DNA from: an uncultured Thermoguttaceae bacterium | GTDB taxonomy: Bacteria > Planctomycetota > Planctomycetia > Pirellulales > Thermoguttaceae | Length of the DNA: 42,480 nt | NCBI GenBank assembly: GCA_937951625.1 | Contig: CALFBP010000068.1 | Location: forward strand, 1-42,480 | Direction of reading: 5' to 3' | In this document: positions 1 through 42,480 of the stretch, piece after piece | Layout of the letters: every line of letters starts with the position of its first letter | Position numbering within the stretch: position 1 is the stretch's first letter | Notes under the pieces: generated by a model | What the model was told of the DNA's origin: nothing | What the model saw: only the letters and a program-made list of their open reading frames with translations | Database searches by the model: none | Program-made: the position numbers and the translations under genes

Positions 1-2334
1 TTCCTCGGCCCGATCGTCCACGATCATGCGCCAAGCCCGGTCTAAAAATCCCCGCACGCCTTCTACCCCACGCATGCTCCACGGCTTGACGGCCTCCAAC
101 GGGCCCATGAACATCTCGTACAACCGCAGGGCGTCGGCACCGTATTCGGCCACCACGGCGTCGGGATTCACCACGTTGCCGCGGCTCTTAGACATCTTAT
201 AGGCCCGGCTCTCCACCCGCACAGAGGGATCGCTCTTGAGTACGAACGACTCGCCTTGTTTCTCGACCTGGTCGGGCGAAAGCTTGACGGGCCGGACTGA
301 ATCGCCGAGCGATTCTGCCTCTTCAGCGCTAAGCCATTGGCCGGATGCGTCCTGATAGGCGGTGAACTCCATCTCGCCGAGGATCATACCCTGGTTGACG
401 AGTTTCATGAAAGGCTCGGGCGTGCTCACCAGGCCGCGATCGAAGAGCACCTTGTGCCAGAATCGGGCGTAAAGCAGGTGCAGCACCGCGTGTTCGGCCC
501 CGCCCACGTAAAGATCCACTGGCATCCACGCCTTTTCGATCTCCGGGTCGACCAGGGCGGCATCGTTGCGGGGATCGAGAAATCGCAGGTAATACCAGCA
601 CGAGCCGGCCCATTGCGGCATCGTGTTCGTCTCGCGCTTGTAACGCTTGCCGTCAAGCGTGACGTACAGCCAATCTTCAGGAGCCTTCTCTAGAGGCGGC
701 TCGGGCGAATCGTGCTTGGCGTCGAAGGCCATCGTCGCAGGCAAGTCCAAAGGCAACTGCTCGGGCGAAAGGGCGCGGACCAAACCGTTCGGTTTTCCCT
801 CGGCATCCAGCTCGTGCAGGATTGGGAACGGCTCGCCCCAGAAGTGCTGGCGGCTGAAAAGCCAGTCGCGGAGCTTGTAGTTGACAGCCGCCCGGCCCAG
901 CCCTTTATTGGCCAAGTCCTCGACGATTCGTTGCTTGAATTCCGCGGTGGTCAGCCCGTTGAAACGGCTGGAATGGATCGCCCTGCCCTCGCCTGTGAAC
1001 GCCTCTTGACCCTCGAGCACTGCTTGGCGGTTCACCCCCGGCAGGTCTCCTGGGTCCACCACCGGCACAATCGGCAATTGATATTGCTGCGCGAACTCGA
1101 AGTCGCGGGTGTCGTGGGCGGGAACGGCCATGATCGCCCCCGTGCCGTAGCTGATCAGCACGTAGTCGGCCACCCAAATCGGGATCGCCTTGCCGTTGAC
1201 GGGATTGACCGCATACGAGCCCGTGAACACCCCGGTCTTCTCTTTGGCCAGGTCGGTACGGTCCAGGTCACTCTTCGAGGCGGCCTTGCGACAGTAGGCC
1301 TCCACGGCCGCGGCCTGCTCAGGCTTGGTCAGCCGCCTCACGAAGGGATGCTCCGGGGCGATGACCATGTACGTCGCGCCGAACAGCGTGTCGGGCCGCG
1401 TCGTGTAGATCCGCAAGACGTTCTCGCCAGCTTTCTTTGGGAACCCATGTTCGATCCGATCCACGACGAAATACTCGAATTCTTCCTGCGAGGGCATTCC
1501 GTCGTCGTCGGTCCGCGTGCCGATGAAAAAATCGACCTCCGCGCCCGTGCTGCGGCCGATCCAGTTGCGTTGCAACAGTTTGATGCTCTCGGGCCAATCC
1601 AGTTGATCGAGGTCACGCTCCAGCCGATCCGCGTAGGCGGTGATCCGCAGCATCCATTGACGCAGAGGCAAGCGCACCACGGGATGGCCCCCCCGTTCGC
1701 TCACCCCGCCCACCACTTCCTCATTGGCCAGCACGGTGCCCAACGCCGGGCACCAATTCACCGGGGCCTCGAGTTGATACGCCAGGCGATGTTCGTCTTG
1801 GTACCGCCGTACTGCCTCTTCGCCAGCCGCGGAGACTTCGGGCGGGATAGGCAATTCGGCAATCGGGCGGCCTTTCTGCTGCTCGGGATCGAACCAGGTG
1901 TCGAACAGCACGAGAAAAATGAACTGGGTCCAGCGAAAATACTCTACATCGGTCGTGGCCAGCTCCCGCTCCCAATCGTAACTGAAGCCCAGCATCTTGA
2001 GCTGGCGGCGAAAGTTGCTGATATTTTTTTCGGTGGTTTCTCGGGGATGGGCCCCGGTCCGCTTGGCGTGTTGTTCGGCAGGCAGGCCAAAGGCGTCCCA
2101 GCCCATGGGATGCATCACGCTCCGCCCTCGCATCCGCTCGAAGCGACAAACGATATCAGTGGCCGTATACCCCTCGGGATGGCCCACGTGCAGCCCATCA
2201 CCGCTAGGGTATGGGAACATGTCGAGCACGTAGAGCTTCTTGCCTTGCGGCAACCGAGGCGTTGCAAACGTGCGGTGCTGTTCCCAATACTGCTGCCATT
2301 TCGGCTCGATGATCGCTGGATTGTAACGCGGCAT
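1..2334 (-). CDS. leuS: Leucyl-tRNA synthetase, N-terminal 778 codons (runs off window)
   Basis: Class I synthetase that charges tRNA-Leu in the cytoplasm. The frame is open from ATG at 2334 to base 1, so the C-terminal anticodon and tRNA-binding part lies outside the window. Visible are the HIGH motif as HVGHPEG near residue 49, the KMSKS loop (KMSKSRGN) near residue 710, and a complete CP1 editing domain with the threonine-rich stretch [13 protein letters not shown] and the [19 protein letters not shown] segment, whose Asp discriminates mischarged amino acids. The start is supported by AGGAGA four bases upstream. The whole length matches bacterial LeuS with nothing missing up to the edge. 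A 544-codon open frame on the other strand (712-2346) is an antisense shadow. Confidence 0.97.
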
Positions 2335-37353: not shown

Positions 37354-37458
37354 TTGAGGTTTGATTTCGGTTAGACGATAATCATGTGTGTGAGGGGCGT
37401 AGCTCCTCGCGTTTGCCCTTCGTAGGTCCCTGCCCCGCCTACGGAGGGCTGTTTTTTT
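37354..37458 (+). ncRNA. Candidate small RNA (or nuo leader attenuator) with promoter and intrinsic terminator
   Basis: A promoter-like pair TTGAGG (37354-37359)-17 bp-GATAAT (37377-37382) would start transcription near 37390. The transcript of about 69 nt folds into two hairpins. The first is GAGGGGC-GTA-GCTCCTC (37392-37408; 7 pairs, one G-T). The second is GCCCTTCGTAGG (37415-37426), 11-nt loop, CCTACGGAGGGC (37438-37449; 12 pairs, one T-G), followed by TG and seven T (37452-37458). That second hairpin is the only textbook rho-independent terminator in the window. No coding frame lies upstream on this strand after 35774. It is either a free small RNA or a premature terminator ahead of nuoA. 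Confidence 0.5.
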
Positions 37459-37474
37459 GCGCTGGTCCCCCCAA

Positions 37475-37503
37475 TTGACCCTGACTCGGAACCCACGTAA
37501 AAT
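37475..37503 (+). promoter_or_regulatory. Sigma70-type promoter of the nuo operon
   Basis: -35 TTGACC (37475-37480), 17-bp spacer, -10 TAAAAT (37498-37503). Start near 37510, giving a leader of about 122 nt to nuoA. It lies 16 bp after the terminator at 37415-37458, so nuo transcription can be independent of upstream read-through. Confidence 0.65.
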
Positions 37504-37504
37504 G

Positions 37505-37597
37505 CTTTACCTCGAAAGGGTTATGTAATTTTCTATCGACTGCAATACCCGTTTGGTAGTCGGTATGGTAAAGGCCCTTTCGACCATGAACGTCATG
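37505..37597 (+). promoter_or_regulatory. Nuo leader with interlocking inverted repeats
   Basis: CTTTACC (37505-37511) is complementary to GGTAAAG (37567-37573), and the adjacent TCGAAAGGG (37512-37520) to CCCTTTCGA (37575-37583). The order A-B-A'-B' means both pairs together would make a pseudoknot, or each excludes the other. Between them lies a stem CGACT/AGTCG (37537-37562). A further dyad CATGA-ACG-TCATG follows at 37585-37597. If transcription starts near 37510 only the B pair is fully in the RNA, and the A pair would be a DNA element. Confidence 0.45.
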
Positions 37598-37631
37598 ATA
37601 AAGCATTCCGGAAGCGATTAGGAGCAGTTTG

Positions 37632-38030
37632 GTGCATCACCTTGCGCTCCCGATTCTTCTTCTGTTAGGTATAACGTTTGCCCTCGCTTGCATTTTGGCG
37701 AGTGTCGGAGTGCTCTTTGGCCCACGTCGGGGCGGCCGGGTCAAGCGAATGCCGTACGAGAGCGGGATGGACCCGATCCACGACACGCGGCGGCGATTCG
37801 ACGTGAGATTTTATCTCTTGGCGATCGCTTTTTTGATTTTCGATGTTGAAATGCTATTTTTGTACCCTTGGGCGGTGTTGATCGGGGCGAAAGCAGCCGC
37901 TGAAGCATCGAGCATGACCGCGGCGGAGACGGCGGCCCCGTTGGCCTTTATCGGGGGTCTCGTGTTCCTTGCCTTGTTGACTTTGGGCTACGTCTACGAT
38001 TGGAAAAAAGGGGTGTTTCGGTGGCGGTAG
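37632..38030 (+). CDS. nuoA: NADH-quinone oxidoreductase subunit A
   Basis: 132-residue membrane subunit of complex I, three helices, lying next to the quinone cavity. Family signatures are [20 protein letters not shown], the conserved loop, and [21 protein letters not shown] prefer GTG 37632 because AGGAG ends 7 bases upstream; TTG at 37629 is too close. The gene overlaps nuoB by 10 bases. First gene of the operon; promoter at 37475. Confidence 0.95.
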
Positions 38031-38578
38031 ATTTGCCCGACAATGTGGTGGTGACCAAGCTCGATGAATTGGTGAGCTGGTGTCGCAAAAACAGCTTGTG
38101 GCCGATGCCGTTTGCCACCGCCTGCTGCGGGATCGAATTGATGGCCACGGGTGCTAGCCGCCACGATGTGGCCCGTTTCGGCGCCGAGGTGTTTCGTTTC
38201 AGCCCGCGACAATGCGATCTGATGATCGTCGCCGGGCGGGTGGTAATGAAAATGCTTCCGGTGCTTCAGCGAATCTGGCAGCAAATGCACGAGCCGAAGT
38301 GGTGCATTTCCATGGGGGCATGCGCTTCGACGGGCGGGGTCTTCGACACCTACAGTGTCGTCCAAGGCATCGACCGCTTTATTCCCGTCGACATGTACGT
38401 CCCTGGCTGCCCACCTCGCCCGGAGCAACTCATCCAGGCGATTATCGACCTCCAGGAAAAGATACAGCGGGAGGGGACTGTCTCTGGCCGCGAGTTTTTG
38501 GACCCGAAACGTCAGCAGCCAGTGCTCGCGCTGCGCGAGAAAGGCCGAGGTTCCAATCCGCAAGATACTCGAAAATAA
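38021..38578 (+). CDS. nuoB: NADH-quinone oxidoreductase subunit B (cluster N2)
   Basis: 185 residues; carries the terminal [4Fe-4S] cluster N2 that reduces quinone. All four ligands are present: the tandem cysteines in [11 protein letters not shown], then [12 protein letters not shown] and [13 protein letters not shown]. Start GTG 38021 has AAGGGG 7 bp upstream inside the nuoA end and gives [11 protein letters not shown]; a TTG at 38000 is less likely. An intergenic hairpin CGCCCGAC (38592-38599)/GTCGGGCG (38615-38622) lies in the 132-bp gap before nuoC and may set transcript stability. Confidence 0.96.
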
Positions 38579-38710
38579 AAATTAAGAAGCACGCCCGACG
38601 GAAGATCGGCTCGTGTCGGGCGCAAAAGAAAGGAACGACGCGGTTTCGCGGCGATTTACGGTCAGGGGACCCTTTCGCCACGGCTGGCCGTCGTTTAGGA
38701 AGCGTGATTG

Positions 38711-39214
38711 ATGAGCGCCACCGATCCTGCCACGATCGCTGCATTGAAAGATGCCTTTCCCGAGTTGGTCGTGAGCGAGTTTCGCGGGCAGACGCGGGTA
38801 GTGATTCCTCGGACCCACTTGTTTTCCCTGTTGCAGAAGTTGAAGAACGAGTTCGGGTTCGACATGCTCGTCGACGTGACGTGTGTCGATTACCTTCAGT
38901 ACCGTGGAGCGAAGGATCGATTCGGTTTGGTGTATCTGCTTGCCAGCACGCGTACCAATCAACGGATGACGGTGCGGTGCTTCGTGAACGAACCCGATCC
39001 TTCCGTGCCGTCGGCAGTACCGCTGTGGGAGGGGGCGAATTGGCTTGAGCGGGAGGTTTGGGACCTGTTTGGGATCCGCTTCGAAGGCCACCCCGATTTG
39101 CGCCGGATCGTCTTGCCGGAGGAATTCACGGCGCACCCCTTGCGCAAGGATTACCCGTTACAAGGACTTGGGGAAAGGCACAACTTCCCGGTGATCACAA
39201 GAGCGGAGCAGTGA
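38711..39214 (+). CDS. nuoC: NADH-quinone oxidoreductase subunit C (30 kDa)
   Basis: 167-residue peripheral-arm subunit that packs against NuoD. Family text is LVDVTCVDY, then REVWDLFGIRFEGHPDLRRI, and the C-terminal HPLRKDYPL. It is separate from NuoD, unlike the fused NuoCD of enterobacteria. ATG 38711 has AGGAAG 8 bp upstream. nuoD follows after 10 bp. Confidence 0.96.
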   Translation: MSATDPATIAALKDAFPELVVSEFRGQTRVVIPRTHLFSLLQKLKNEFGFDMLVDVTCVDYLQYRGAKDRFGLVYLLASTRTNQRMTVRCFVNEPDPSVPSAVPLWEGANWLEREVWDLFGIRFEGHPDLRRIVLPEEFTAHPLRKDYPLQGLGERHNFPVITRAEQ

Positions 39215-39224
39215 GTCGCTTGTC

Positions 39225-40451
39225 ATGCCGTTAACGCGCAGTACGCTGAGGGAAGGCATTCCGGAGGGGGGACCTCAGGAATATTTATGGACCATGAATT
39301 TTGGGCCGCAGCACCCGGCCACGCACACGACCTTGCGGTTGGTGCTCACGCTGGATGGCGAACGGGTGGTGGACGCGGAACCCGACATTGGCTATCTCCA
39401 CTCGGGCTTTGAAAAGATTGGCGAGCACTTGGACTTCAACCAGTACGTCACAGTGACGGACCGCATGAATTATATCTCGCCCATGGCCAACAACGTGGCC
39501 TGGCACTTGGCGGTCGAGAAGCTGTTGGGGATTGAGGTCCCGCCGCGATGCCAATATCTTCGCGTGATCATCGCCGAACTAGCCCGCATCAGCGATCACC
39601 TCTTATGCAATGGTGCAGCCGGACTGGATACGGGTGCTTTCACCTTTTTCATCTACGCCTTCAACCCGCGGGAACAGATCTATTCGATCTTTGAGGCCTT
39701 GTGCGGGGCCCGGTTCACGAACAGTTACACGCGTGTTGGCGGCTTGATGAACGATGCCTCGCCCAAGGCCATCGAAATGATCCGGGAGTTCTTGCGCGGA
39801 ATGCCCAAGGTGCTCGACGACATGGAACGCCTGTTGACCCGCAACCGCATCTTCGTCGACCGCACCAAAGGGATCGGCGTGTTGACTAAAGAAGAGGCGA
39901 TCAACCGCTCGGTGACCGGGCCGATTGCCCGGGCAAGCGGGGTGACCCGCGACCTGCGCAAGGACGAACCGTATCTGGCGTACCGCGACTTCGATTTCAA
40001 AGTTTGCTGCGCGAAGGCGGGCGATTGCTACGCCCGATTTTTGGTCCGCATGGCGGAAATGCGGGAGAGCTTGAAGATCATCGAGCAAGCGGTGGAAAAC
40101 CTTCCGTCAGGACCGGTCAACGTGGGCATCGGAGACCGCGTGGCGCTGCCTGACAAGCGGCAGGTGTTCACCACGATCGAGGGCTTGATCTCTCACTTCG
40201 AACTGACGATGAGCAACCGCGGTTTCGAGACGCCATGCGAAGAGGTGTATGCGGCGACGGAGTCGCCCAACGGCGAACTTGGGTTTTACATCGTGGGCGA
40301 TGGGACGAACACGGCCTATCGGGCCCGCTGCCGCCCGCCCTCGTTCATCCACTTCGCCCTGTTTCCCCACTTGATCCGCGGCCACACGCTCAGCGACGTG
40401 GTGGCGGTATTGAGCAGCCTGAACATCATCGCCGCGGAGTTGGATCGGTGA
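39225..40451 (+). CDS. nuoD: NADH-quinone oxidoreductase subunit D (49 kDa)
   Basis: 408-residue subunit forming the quinone-binding pocket with NuoB, related to the large subunit of NiFe hydrogenases. Visible are MNFGPQHPATHTTLRLVLTL (the His-bearing loop near the quinone head), DIGYLHSGFEKIGEHLDFNQ, YVTVTDRMNYISPM (conserved Tyr), NRIFVDRTKGIGVLTKEEAI, and the C-terminal GDGTNTAYRARCRPPSFIHF. It ends normally at the usual family C-terminus. Next comes the ATPase gene 14 bp away instead of nuoE. Confidence 0.97.
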   Translation: MPLTRSTLREGIPEGGPQEYLWTMNFGPQHPATHTTLRLVLTLDGERVVDAEPDIGYLHSGFEKIGEHLDFNQYVTVTDRMNYISPMANNVAWHLAVEKLLGIEVPPRCQYLRVIIAELARISDHLLCNGAAGLDTGAFTFFIYAFNPREQIYSIFEALCGARFTNSYTRVGGLMNDASPKAIEMIREFLRGMPKVLDDMERLLTRNRIFVDRTKGIGVLTKEEAINRSVTGPIARASGVTRDLRKDEPYLAYRDFDFKVCCAKAGDCYARFLVRMAEMRESLKIIEQAVENLPSGPVNVGIGDRVALPDKRQVFTTIEGLISHFELTMSNRGFETPCEEVYAATESPNGELGFYIVGDGTNTAYRARCRPPSFIHFALFPHLIRGHTLSDVVAVLSSLNIIAAELDR

Positions 40452-40465
40452 GAGGTCGCTGCGCG

Positions 40466-41596
40466 ATGTTGACATTGACACATCTGGAACTTGCCGGCTT
40501 CAAAACGATCGCCAGCATCTCCCCGCCCCTTGCGCTTCGTCCACTGACGGTGCTCCTCGGCGCAAACGGCGCGGGGAAGTCGAATTTCCTCCTTTTCTTC
40601 CGGCTGCTTCATGAGTTGGTGAACCGGCGGCTTCAATGGTTCGTGAAGACTCAGCCAGGAAGGGGCGACGCGCTGCTCTATTACGGCTCGAAGACCACGC
40701 AGCGGATCGAAGCCGGACTGGCGCTTTCACATGAGCAAGACTTTTCCGTAGCGTACAAGCTCTTCCTCGATTTCTGCCCTCCGGACAGCTTGATCATCGA
40801 ACACGACGAAATTTGTTTTGGCCGCAAGATGCCGGGCGTCATCCCGGCGGCAACCTCGGTAACGATCAGTCGGGCTGCTGATGAAACCAATTTGCCGAGC
40901 GCTGATGAGCAATCACTAGCCGAGGCCGTTGAGGTTTGGGACTTCCTGCGGCGCTTGGCCGTGTACCACTTCCTCGACACCTCGCGCGATGCTTCGATTC
41001 GCAAACCGAGTTACATTCATGACAACGCGGTGCTTCGGCACGATGGCGGTAACCTTGCCTCGGTGCTTTTCAAACTCAAGACGACCTATGGATGGGCCTA
41101 CCGCCGCATCATCGCAACGATTCGCCAAATGTTGCCTTGGTTCCGCGACTTCCGCTTGGAACCGCTGGCGCTGAATCCGACGCACGTGCAACTCGACTGG
41201 TACGAGCAAGACTCGGACTTGTTGTTCGGCCCGCACCAGCTCCCTGACGGTGGGCTGCGGGCGATCGCTCTAGTGACTGCGTTGTTACAGCCCGAAGAGT
41301 TGCTCCCTCCACTGGTCCTGATCGATGAGCCAGAGCTAGGATTGCATCCGCACGCGCTTTCCATTCTTGCGGGGCTGGTCAAGGGCGCGGCGTTTCACTC
41401 TCAAATCATTCTTGCCACGCAGTCCGTGGCGCTCGTAGAGTATTTCGACCCCGAGGACATCGTCGTAGTCGACCGCAAAGACGGCGCATCGACGTTCGCC
41501 CGGCTGGAAGCGGAGAAACTCCAAGATTGGTTGGGCGACTACTCGCTCGGTGAATTGTGGGAGAAGAACCTCATTGGCGGTGGGCTCAACGCATGA
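40466..41596 (+). CDS. OLD/RecF-like AAA ABC-class ATPase of a two-gene conflict-type system
   Basis: 376 residues from ATG 40466. The N-terminus MLTLTHLELAGFKTI is followed by Walker A GANGAGKSN (Lys38), a middle region with coiled-coil-like and insert segments (about 55-240), an ABC signature-like LPDGGLRAIAL (about 259-269), Walker B LVLIDEPELGLHPHA (Asp287-Glu288) and an H/Q-loop region IILATQS (about 314-320). This is the SMC/RecF/OLD layout in one chain (AAA_21-like). It has no nuclease of its own; that would be supplied by the DUF4276 protein encoded next, whose ATG overlaps this stop (ATGA). It lies 14 bp after nuoD and would be read from the nuo promoter. It is not a complex I component. 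Confidence 0.85.
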   Translation: MLTLTHLELAGFKTIASISPPLALRPLTVLLGANGAGKSNFLLFFRLLHELVNRRLQWFVKTQPGRGDALLYYGSKTTQRIEAGLALSHEQDFSVAYKLFLDFCPPDSLIIEHDEICFGRKMPGVIPAATSVTISRAADETNLPSADEQSLAEAVEVWDFLRRLAVYHFLDTSRDASIRKPSYIHDNAVLRHDGGNLASVLFKLKTTYGWAYRRIIATIRQMLPWFRDFRLEPLALNPTHVQLDWYEQDSDLLFGPHQLPDGGLRAIALVTALLQPEELLPPLVLIDEPELGLHPHALSILAGLVKGAAFHSQIILATQSVALVEYFDPEDIVVVDRKDGASTFARLEAEKLQDWLGDYSLGELWEKNLIGGGLNA

Positions 41597-42282
41597 CGCG
41601 GCTATGCGTCATTGCCGAAGGAAAAACAGAACAATTATTCGCCACCCGGCTTTTGACGCCTCACCTGGCGGATCGCGGGGTGATCGTCCATCGCCCCGGC
41701 CTCGTGGAAACAAGCAGGAAACACGGGAAACGTGGTGGCCTGCTGAACTACGATCAGGTCAAGAGGTTCATCCAACATTGGTTGAGGCAAGAACACGGCA
41801 GCGACACGTATTTCACCACCATGTTCGACATGTACCGCTTGCCGCGGCGTTTTCCGGGCTACGAACGGGCGATGACATTGGAGAATAAATACGCTCGCGT
41901 GGCTGAGCTGGAGAGTGCCTTTGCGGCTGACCTCGACGACCGGCGTTTCATTCCGTATTTTCAGTTACACGAGTTCGAGGCGATCCTCTTTGCAGACCCG
42001 AAAGCGTTCGCACAATATTACGGGGGCGATGAACAGCTTAGTCGCAAGCTCGAAGCGCTCGAGTGCGTGGCCGAGAAGTTCGGCAATCCCGAATTGATCG
42101 ACGACGGCGAGCAAACGGCGCCATCGAAGAGGATTATTGAACAGTTTCCCGACTACAAAGCTAGGAGAAGTACGGCGGGGCCAATCATCGCCGAAGCGAT
42201 CGGCCTCGCGAAGATTCGTTCGGCGTGTCGGCATTTCGATGAGTGGCTGACGAAGCTGGAAAAACTGGACGCTCCCAGCTAA
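41593..42282 (+). CDS. DUF4276 protein, Toprim-like partner of the ATPase
   Basis: 229 residues. Motifs of the DUF4276 family: CVIAEGKTEQLFATRLL with Glu9 in the position of the Toprim glutamate, TTMFDMYRLPRRFPGY with Asp79 (acidic DxY/DMY in place of a Toprim DxD), and YFQLHEFEAILFADP (HEFEA at 126-130). The family often occurs directly behind an OLD/RecF-like ATPase, and the members are thought to be metal-dependent nucleases, by analogy with OLD, PARIS and RloAB. The family and pairing are recognised; nuclease activity is inference. It overlaps the ATPase by 4 bp and ends 18 bp before nuoE. Confidence 0.8.
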   Translation: MTRLCVIAEGKTEQLFATRLLTPHLADRGVIVHRPGLVETSRKHGKRGGLLNYDQVKRFIQHWLRQEHGSDTYFTTMFDMYRLPRRFPGYERAMTLENKYARVAELESAFAADLDDRRFIPYFQLHEFEAILFADPKAFAQYYGGDEQLSRKLEALECVAEKFGNPELIDDGEQTAPSKRIIEQFPDYKARRSTAGPIIAEAIGLAKIRSACRHFDEWLTKLEKLDAPS

Positions 42283-42300
42283 TCTTCAATTAAAAAGTTT

Positions 42301-42480
42301 ATGGCAACCACGCGAGTCTTCAACGACACGATCCTCGCCGCGATTCGGGAGTATTTTCCCCGCTATCCGAACCGCCGGGCGGTGGTGTTGCCGGCGCTGC
42401 ACGTGATCAACGAACATCTAGGCTATGTCCCGCCCGAAGCCGTCGCCGAAATCGCCGAACTCCTCGAGCTCGCGCCCGCC
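42301..42480 (+). CDS. nuoE: NADH-quinone oxidoreductase subunit E, first 60 codons (runs off window)
   Basis: The [2Fe-2S] N1a subunit (24 kDa), thioredoxin-like. The ATG at 42301 begins MATTRVFNDTILAAIREYFP and reaches PALHVINEHLGYVPPEAVAE, the usual N-terminal helical part of NuoE (cf. P-x-L-x-x-x-x-x-H-L-G-Y-V). The cluster cysteines lie beyond the window. No good SD is seen; the bases before it are AT-rich (AATTAAAAAGTTT). It confirms that the nuo operon resumes directly after the two inserted genes. Confidence 0.88.
   Translation, partial: MATTRVFNDTILAAIREYFPRYPNRRAVVLPALHVINEHLGYVPPEAVAEIAELLELAPA

Follow-up and report, generated by a model that had tools for sequence, protein, structure and literature searches.

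Background

Candidate immune modules are usually sought in islands and mobile elements. The locus analysed here raises the question of why two genes resembling such a module, which encode an ABC ATPase and a DUF4276 protein, lie inside the operon for respiratory complex I, between nuoD and nuoE, what they may do there, and whether their site is connected with respiration. The window, that is, the whole stretch of 42,480 nucleotides under analysis, is one entire contig, C68; the draft genome to which it belongs (G000) measures 4.59 Mb. A preliminary description of this DNA had read the pair as a possible anti-phage module, either inserted opportunistically or acting as a guard over respiration.

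Results and discussion

Gene order and spacing at the locus

By ORF calls, the four genes at the end of the window are all co-directional:

39225..40451, + strand: nuoD, complex I 49 kDa subunit, the upstream neighbour (PF00346 Complex1_49kDa, E 1.1e-106)
40466..41596, + strand: HEC-01A ATPase of SMC/Rad50/PtuA-type ABC, 376 aa (PF13304, AAA_21, E 2.8e-23)
41593..42282, + strand: HEC-01B, DUF4276 protein, predicted OLD-type Toprim-like, 229 aa (PF14103, E 3.1e-52)
42301..42480, + strand: 5' part of nuoE (PF01257 2Fe-2S_thioredx, E 1.1e-6 over 60 aa)

Upstream lie three genes that we take to be nuoA (37629-38030), nuoB (38000-38578) and nuoC (38708-39214), also on the basis of tblastn against relatives. 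The ATPase gene starts 14 bp after nuoD, its stop codon overlaps the DUF4276 start as ATGA, and 18 bp separate the DUF4276 gene from nuoE. Order, strands, coordinates and both gaps are thus as the preliminary description gave them; its wording "in frame with the operon" was loose, since it holds for direction and tight spacing and there is no fusion. The contig ends within nuoE, and the nuo operon runs on past the window, because the first 141 bp of contig C85 overlap C68 exactly, and the remaining nuoE and nuoF follow there.

Since a promoter or terminator has little room at these junctions, the pair would depend on read-through from the promoter of complex I, and it is probably co-transcribed with the nuo genes, as the spacing suggests. 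A consensus scan of positions 37400-42480 found two promoter-like sites, one upstream of nuoA and one within the ATPase gene, where 1.6 were expected; as this is no more than chance, a separate promoter for the pair is without evidence. The GC content of the ATPase gene (0.58) and of the DUF4276 gene (0.56) is near that of the nuo genes (0.56-0.64), and therefore the pair bears no recent foreign stamp.

The pair belongs to HEC-01

The best PADLOC match of the ATPase is HEC-01A (PDLC04175, E 5.1e-119, aa 3-373 of 376) and that of the DUF4276 protein is HEC-01B (PDLC04188, E 2.6e-76, aa 1-225 of 229); PF14103 and AAA_21, the Pfam families which the preliminary description had named, matched as well. 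The two genes are neighbours on one strand, joined by the ATGA overlap, as HEC-01 demands. Judged by these profiles the pair is a member of HEC-01, a candidate defence system in PADLOC, and the type of module is already known. HECs are Hma-embedded candidates, according to a 2026 study of archaeal immunity, which reports antiviral activity for several of them, including HEC-06 (PMC12988326). PMC12724379 lists HEC-01 without more; we found no experiment on HEC-01 in the literature searched, and a full-text literature search returned no paper on DUF4276.

When named genomes were scanned, the DUF4276 protein had at least 543 relatives, of which the best 80 were analysed. They belong to cyanobacteria, Chloroflexota, Acidobacteriota, Pseudomonadota, planctomycetes and others, and all 80 loci hold an ATPase match. 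The junction between the two genes measures -4 to +5 bp in 75/80; the remaining five (319, -10, -29, -38 and -91 bp) may reflect genes that are broken or start codons that the script misplaced, and in 6/80 the ATPase ORF is shorter than 300 aa. Twelve records of a plasmid collection contain a relative, and none was matched among 50,697 records of a phage collection. Since the relatives span many phyla and occur on plasmids, HEC-01 is widely but patchily spread.

The genome of the window also encodes three more DUF4276 proteins above the Pfam cut-off (C34:67256-67816, C14:32704-33246 and C36:46331-46864), none of which was matched by the window copy at E 0.001 in a protein search. In two other genomes, copies of HEC-01 genes are interrupted by a TGA stop and are apparently decaying (G117:C261:999-2090 and G079:C208:5298-5459).

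Predicted folds and conserved residues

The AlphaFold model of the DUF4276 protein has a pLDDT of 90. Its top Foldseek match is OLD (probability 0.99, E 1.3e-3, TM 0.37/0.40), nothing being found by Foldseek at E 0.001 or below. In VIA-align, OLD C-terminal regions score between Z 8.8 and 9.9, the best at an rmsd of 4.3 over 176 residues; they are accompanied by an uncharacterised Pyrococcus protein, 2p62 (Z 9.0), and followed by AriB (7.4), retron Eco8 (7.2) and GajA (7.0). Because unrelated folds, for example PurE, reach Z 7.2, the scores are distinctive only for OLD and 2p62. A sequence search of the DUF4276 profile against solved structures gave no match at E up to 1. On these moderate scores the predicted overall fold resembles Toprim, with OLD as the closest match. 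The preliminary description had made the defence reading depend on superposition on Toprim or another nuclease fold; the model resembles the OLD Toprim regions and AriB, the HEC-01 matches agree, and the reading as an ATPase plus Toprim-like pair is supported.

Four motifs are conserved in the alignment of 96 DUF4276 proteins:

41617..41631, + strand: EGxTE with E9 (96/96 rows) and E13 (95/96), candidate metal ligands
41827..41835, + strand: DxY with D79 (96/96) and Y81 (95/96), in place of Toprim DxD
41971..41979, + strand: ExE with E127 and E129 (96/96 each)
42121..42132, + strand: PSKR, aa 177-180, with S178 (96/96) and R180 (94/96), candidate basic catalytic residue

In the Burkholderia OLD nuclease the metal ligands reported are E400, E404, D455, D457, T506 and E508, assisted by K562 (PMC6755086). 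The DUF4276 residues E9, E13, D79, E127, E129 and R180 follow the order of these ligands and K562, and E9 and E13 are spaced as E400 and E404 are; E9 would thus be the equivalent of E400, judging from the spacing and from the ranges of the structural alignment (1..227 to 392..594) rather than from residue pairs. The invariant Glu of Toprim would have its counterpart in E9, and where Toprim has DxD, D79-x-Y81 is found instead.

For the ATPase, the model has a pLDDT of 89.7 and is matched by SMC and Rad50 heads at Z 19-23 and by retron PtuA at Z 19-20; AriA does not occur among the 50 structure matches listed, which says nothing against a resemblance to it. Its motifs, with their conservation in a 91-row alignment, are:

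40559..40582, + strand: Walker A GANGAGKS, aa 32-39, K38 in 90/91 rows, the remaining row having X
41240..41260, + strand: ABC signature LPDGGLR (usually xSDG[TS]LR), aa 259-265, Ser260 in 85/91 rows
41315..41335, + strand: Walker B VLIDEPE, aa 284-290, D287, E288, P289 and E290 in 91/91 rows

Proline at the position of Ser260 is found in the window, in G015, one of the two other genomes with a pair at the nuo site (see below), and in locus L166. The signature reads PDGGLR in the window, PGGGFR in G015 and SDGTLR in G023, the third such genome, and P260 occurs together with G263 only in the window and G015 among the 91 rows. Because the ATPases of the window and G015 are without the signature serine, their ATP hydrolysis may be altered.

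Relation to known systems

With its HEC-01 relatives the pair shares protein models, gene order and the short overlap; what sets the window copy apart is its position in the complex I operon and the change from Ser to Pro in the ABC signature. In PARIS (AriA-AriB, class 4 OLD), too, the ABC ATPase and its partner are encoded by separate neighbouring genes; the fold of the partner is Toprim-like, in our case by prediction, and the DUF4276 model resembles AriB at Z 7.4. However, the DUF4276 protein matched only HEC-01B models (five) and no AriB model at E up to 1, AriA (PDLC02980, E 1.2e-23 for the ATPase) ranked under nine HEC-01A models, and DxY is found where DxD is expected. AriB is reported to cleave tRNA-Lys (PMC12409363). 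The Toprim-like fold with a helical part is common to the DUF4276 model, the OLD nucleases of classes 1-3 and GajA, but here ATPase and Toprim are two chains and no helicase gene is adjacent; in fact, where Gabija has the UvrD-like helicase GajB, the neighbours are nuoD and nuoE. The MADS ATPase MAD3 is a weak family-profile match (87.6 bits versus a cut-off of 420), and the genes next to our ATPase are nuoD, DUF4276 and nuoE.

nuoD-nuoE junctions in related genomes

Forty-six nuoD-nuoE junctions of the taxonomic order could be read, 32 from the window's family and 14 from its other families; those of G050, G081 and G006 lie outside this set. The pair occupies three of them, in the window, G015 and G023, which represent three genera of one family. 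In G015 it is followed by nuoE, nuoF, nuoG and nuoH and then by a ferredoxin-type gene at the position of nuoI. Because two further genera show the identical gene order, an assembly artefact of one genome is ruled out.

Two more junctions, in G018 and G069 (both of genus g19), carry a scar, in which about the last 18 codons of the DUF4276 gene remain: the frames HFDPWITKLERLKA (G018) and CPHFDPWIAQLARLGAPT (G069) end with TAA directly before nuoE and align to the DUF4276 C-terminus HFDEWLTKLEKLDA. Both alignments score 60, against shuffle maxima of 38 and 37 (40 shuffles each). The search for scars covered the forward strand of the 43 pair-less junctions with eight query proteins and single-base shuffles as the null; 13 junctions with gaps below 24 bp were left unscored and 30 were scored, of which 28 gave no signal above the shuffles. 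The remaining 41/46 junctions are empty.

A complex I accessory gene should be present at the site across the nuo operons of relatives, and a universal presence had been named in the preliminary description as what would speak against defence. The pair is far from universal, with three occupied junctions and two scarred ones. Eight DUF4276-bearing genomes from other families have nuoD and the DUF4276 gene on separate contigs. Among the best 80 of the at least 543 relatives in named genomes, some of whose loci are cut by contig ends, nuo genes were seen only at L091, which is apparently the contig of G023.

The genome of the window encodes a second NuoD-like protein (G000:C39:53677-54816), 45-50% identical in two pieces, and a second NuoD match of this kind is also common among the 60 relatives covered.

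In open-licence papers we did not find in print a HEC-01 pair inside a nuo operon, its sharing among genera or its scar, nor related literature on a nuo operon together with a defence system; among the papers listed on defence genes in housekeeping operons, none bore on this case by its title and the opening of its abstract.

One insertion or several

Whether the three pairs descend from a single insertion was addressed with trees of the concatenated ATPase and DUF4276 proteins. A FastTree of 90 rows places the three in one clade at 0.965. In a tree of 39 rows under LG+F+G4 this clade has an SH-aLRT/UFBoot support of 93.1/97, and under a mixture model a UFBoot/SH-aLRT support of 93/82, while in a 42-row tree with another alignment it is weak (UFBoot/SH-aLRT 69/34). 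The 39-row set is the clade of the 42-row tree realigned, with five near-copies out and three new rows in; support thus ranges from weak to good (UFBoot 69 to 97) depending on the choice of rows and on the alignment. The larger sets were built without L091 and L099 (apparently contigs of G023 and G004) and without the loci with short ORFs. Trees of the ATPase alone group the nuo-site copies at 53/77 or 0.63.

In a tree of NuoB, NuoC and NuoD, where 16/47 rows are less than half filled, G015 joins G012 and G067 at 100/100, and the other occupied genera fall in a part without resolution. Since the junctions of G012 and G067 are both empty and scarless, losses have to be assumed. Because the pairs from the three nuo sites group together, with the support given above, a single old insertion with later losses, of which the scar records one, fits best and is probably the right reading. 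This agrees with the option, raised in the preliminary description, of an opportunistic insertion that left the operon intact, to which the sharing among genera and the scar elsewhere are now added.

The alternative is that HEC-01 pairs were inserted independently between nuoD and nuoE in several genera, the site tolerating or attracting them. Several observations point in this direction: the three nuo-site pairs are just 46-51% identical in protein sequence while NuoD of the window shares 82-83% identity with its counterparts in G015 and G023; the sister genus g13 is empty and scarless; trees of DUF4276 alone do not unite the three copies; and rare shared residues, used as a test of one origin, show no excess among them. 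On the other hand, the concatenated trees do unite the pairs, weakly to well, L091 is the one locus with nuo genes among the best 80 of the at least 543 relatives, and at none of the three occupied junctions is the pair flanked by direct or inverted repeats of at least 14 bp. On balance we regard repeated insertion as possible but rather unlikely.

Proposed function of the pair

Our main reading, to which we give a probability of about 0.58, is that the pair is a split OLD/PARIS-like antiphage module of the HEC-01 type which was inserted once between nuoD and nuoE, is expressed by read-through from nuo, and was later lost in several lineages. By analogy with related systems, the ABC ATPase would bind ATP in a dimeric or higher assembly, probably sensing or holding, and may keep hold of the Toprim-like DUF4276 protein until a signal of infection arrives. 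Once freed or activated, the DUF4276 protein would probably cut nucleic acid, either DNA or tRNA, and the cutting would stop phage growth or kill the infected cell. As for its history, the pair would have entered the junction in an ancestor of several genera without breaking any nuo gene, relying for its transcription on the promoter of complex I; several lineages would then have deleted it, one genus keeping about 18 codons of the DUF4276 end. The pair and its family, the Toprim-like fold as predicted, the conserved acidic residues, the site common to three genera and the scar are results of the analysis, whereas we infer the nuclease activity, phage defence, co-transcription and single origin in this scheme from the comparisons given above.

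Other roles, and the link to respiration

The retention of the pair in a core operon of three genera might also mean that it is a domesticated ATPase-nuclease with a job in cell physiology. There is a precedent in archaeal Cran1, an OLD-family protein which is reported to act in cell-cycle control (PMC12796447), and the ABC signature is divergent in two of the three nuo-site ATPases. However, most relatives are without the pair and one genus has deleted it, so it is not essential in the family; moreover, its distribution across phyla is patchy. A housekeeping role is thus improbable.

A further proposal, which we offer only as a long shot, is that the module was kept in the complex I operon through several genera because expression tied to respiration is useful, either through coupling with energy metabolism or through the sensing of lost respiration when phages depolarise the cell; the replacement of the signature serine in two of the three copies would then be an adaptation to this setting.

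As for the guard of the preliminary description, the pair would monitor complex I or respiration and fire when phages disturb it, hence its site. The retention of the site in three genera and the shared expression that the spacing would give are in its favour. Against it, 41 of the 46 junctions are empty, both proteins are recognisable HEC-01 members without an added domain, and pairs elsewhere adjoin unrelated genes (restriction, aminotransferase, pyrimidine or other genes), L091 being the only one of the best 80 loci with nuo genes. Moreover, among 119 genomes of the family, 20 have the ATPase (E 1e-35) and 34 have NuoD (E 1e-80); the DUF4276 gene adjoins the ATPase gene in 18/20, lying on another contig in G032, with none found in G065. 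Seven of the 18 genomes with an adjacent pair have NuoD, and in three of these the pair occupies the nuo site, while 11/18 give no NuoD match at 1e-80, an absence that is uncertain in drafts. There is no indication that the pair depends on complex I or the reverse, and a guard of respiration seems very improbable.

The setting of HEC-01 at other loci was also compared with control gene pairs, and a general targeting of operons was rejected, there being no enrichment over the controls. With a crude ORF caller and ORFs of at least 100 aa, both flanks are co-directional within 60 bp at 1/67 HEC-01 loci versus 3/45 control pairs, and within 150 bp at 10/67 versus 11/45. With ORFs of at least 80 aa, counted without a control, 2/74 loci have both flanks within 60 bp. 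These counts left out the 6/80 loci with an ATPase ORF below 300 aa; the set of 67 also left out L091 and loci without flanks, and the set of 74 kept L091, whose nuoE the caller missed. As a test for a setting in defence islands, 96 flanking proteins at other loci were tallied per family, a count that is silent on how many of them had any match: even the most frequent PADLOC families matched just 2-3 proteins each, and metabolic and restriction types were mixed among the most frequent Pfam families.

Two individual loci deserve mention. On a Latescibacteria chromosome (OY282377.1; L140:3976-7618) a HEC-01 pair lies 106 bp after a pyrK-like gene and 1 bp before pyrD, the flanks being by Pfam the Fe-S subunit and the catalytic subunit of dihydroorotate dehydrogenase; this is a second case of a pair within a core metabolic gene cluster. 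In an uncultured Chlorobiaceae (L139:2993-9209) the pair is flanked on one side by a GmrSD restriction gene and on the other, with a 4-bp overlap, by a PglZ gene.

Finally, the pair might be a neutral passenger without current function, decaying and awaiting deletion, as the strong divergence of the three nuo-site copies, the replaced signature serine in the window and G015 and the decay that left the scar in another genus would allow, but all three nuo-site pairs are full-length with conserved Walker and acidic residues, and this is hardly credible.

Conclusions

The kind of module is known, and what is unusual is where it lies, within the operon for complex I. Should the pair be active, it would be a naturally occurring example of a possibly toxic nuclease under a housekeeping promoter, and a warning that the junctions of core operons can harbour defence genes that are missed by searches based on islands. 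The comparison also points to DUF4276 as an OLD-like variant of Toprim with DxY.
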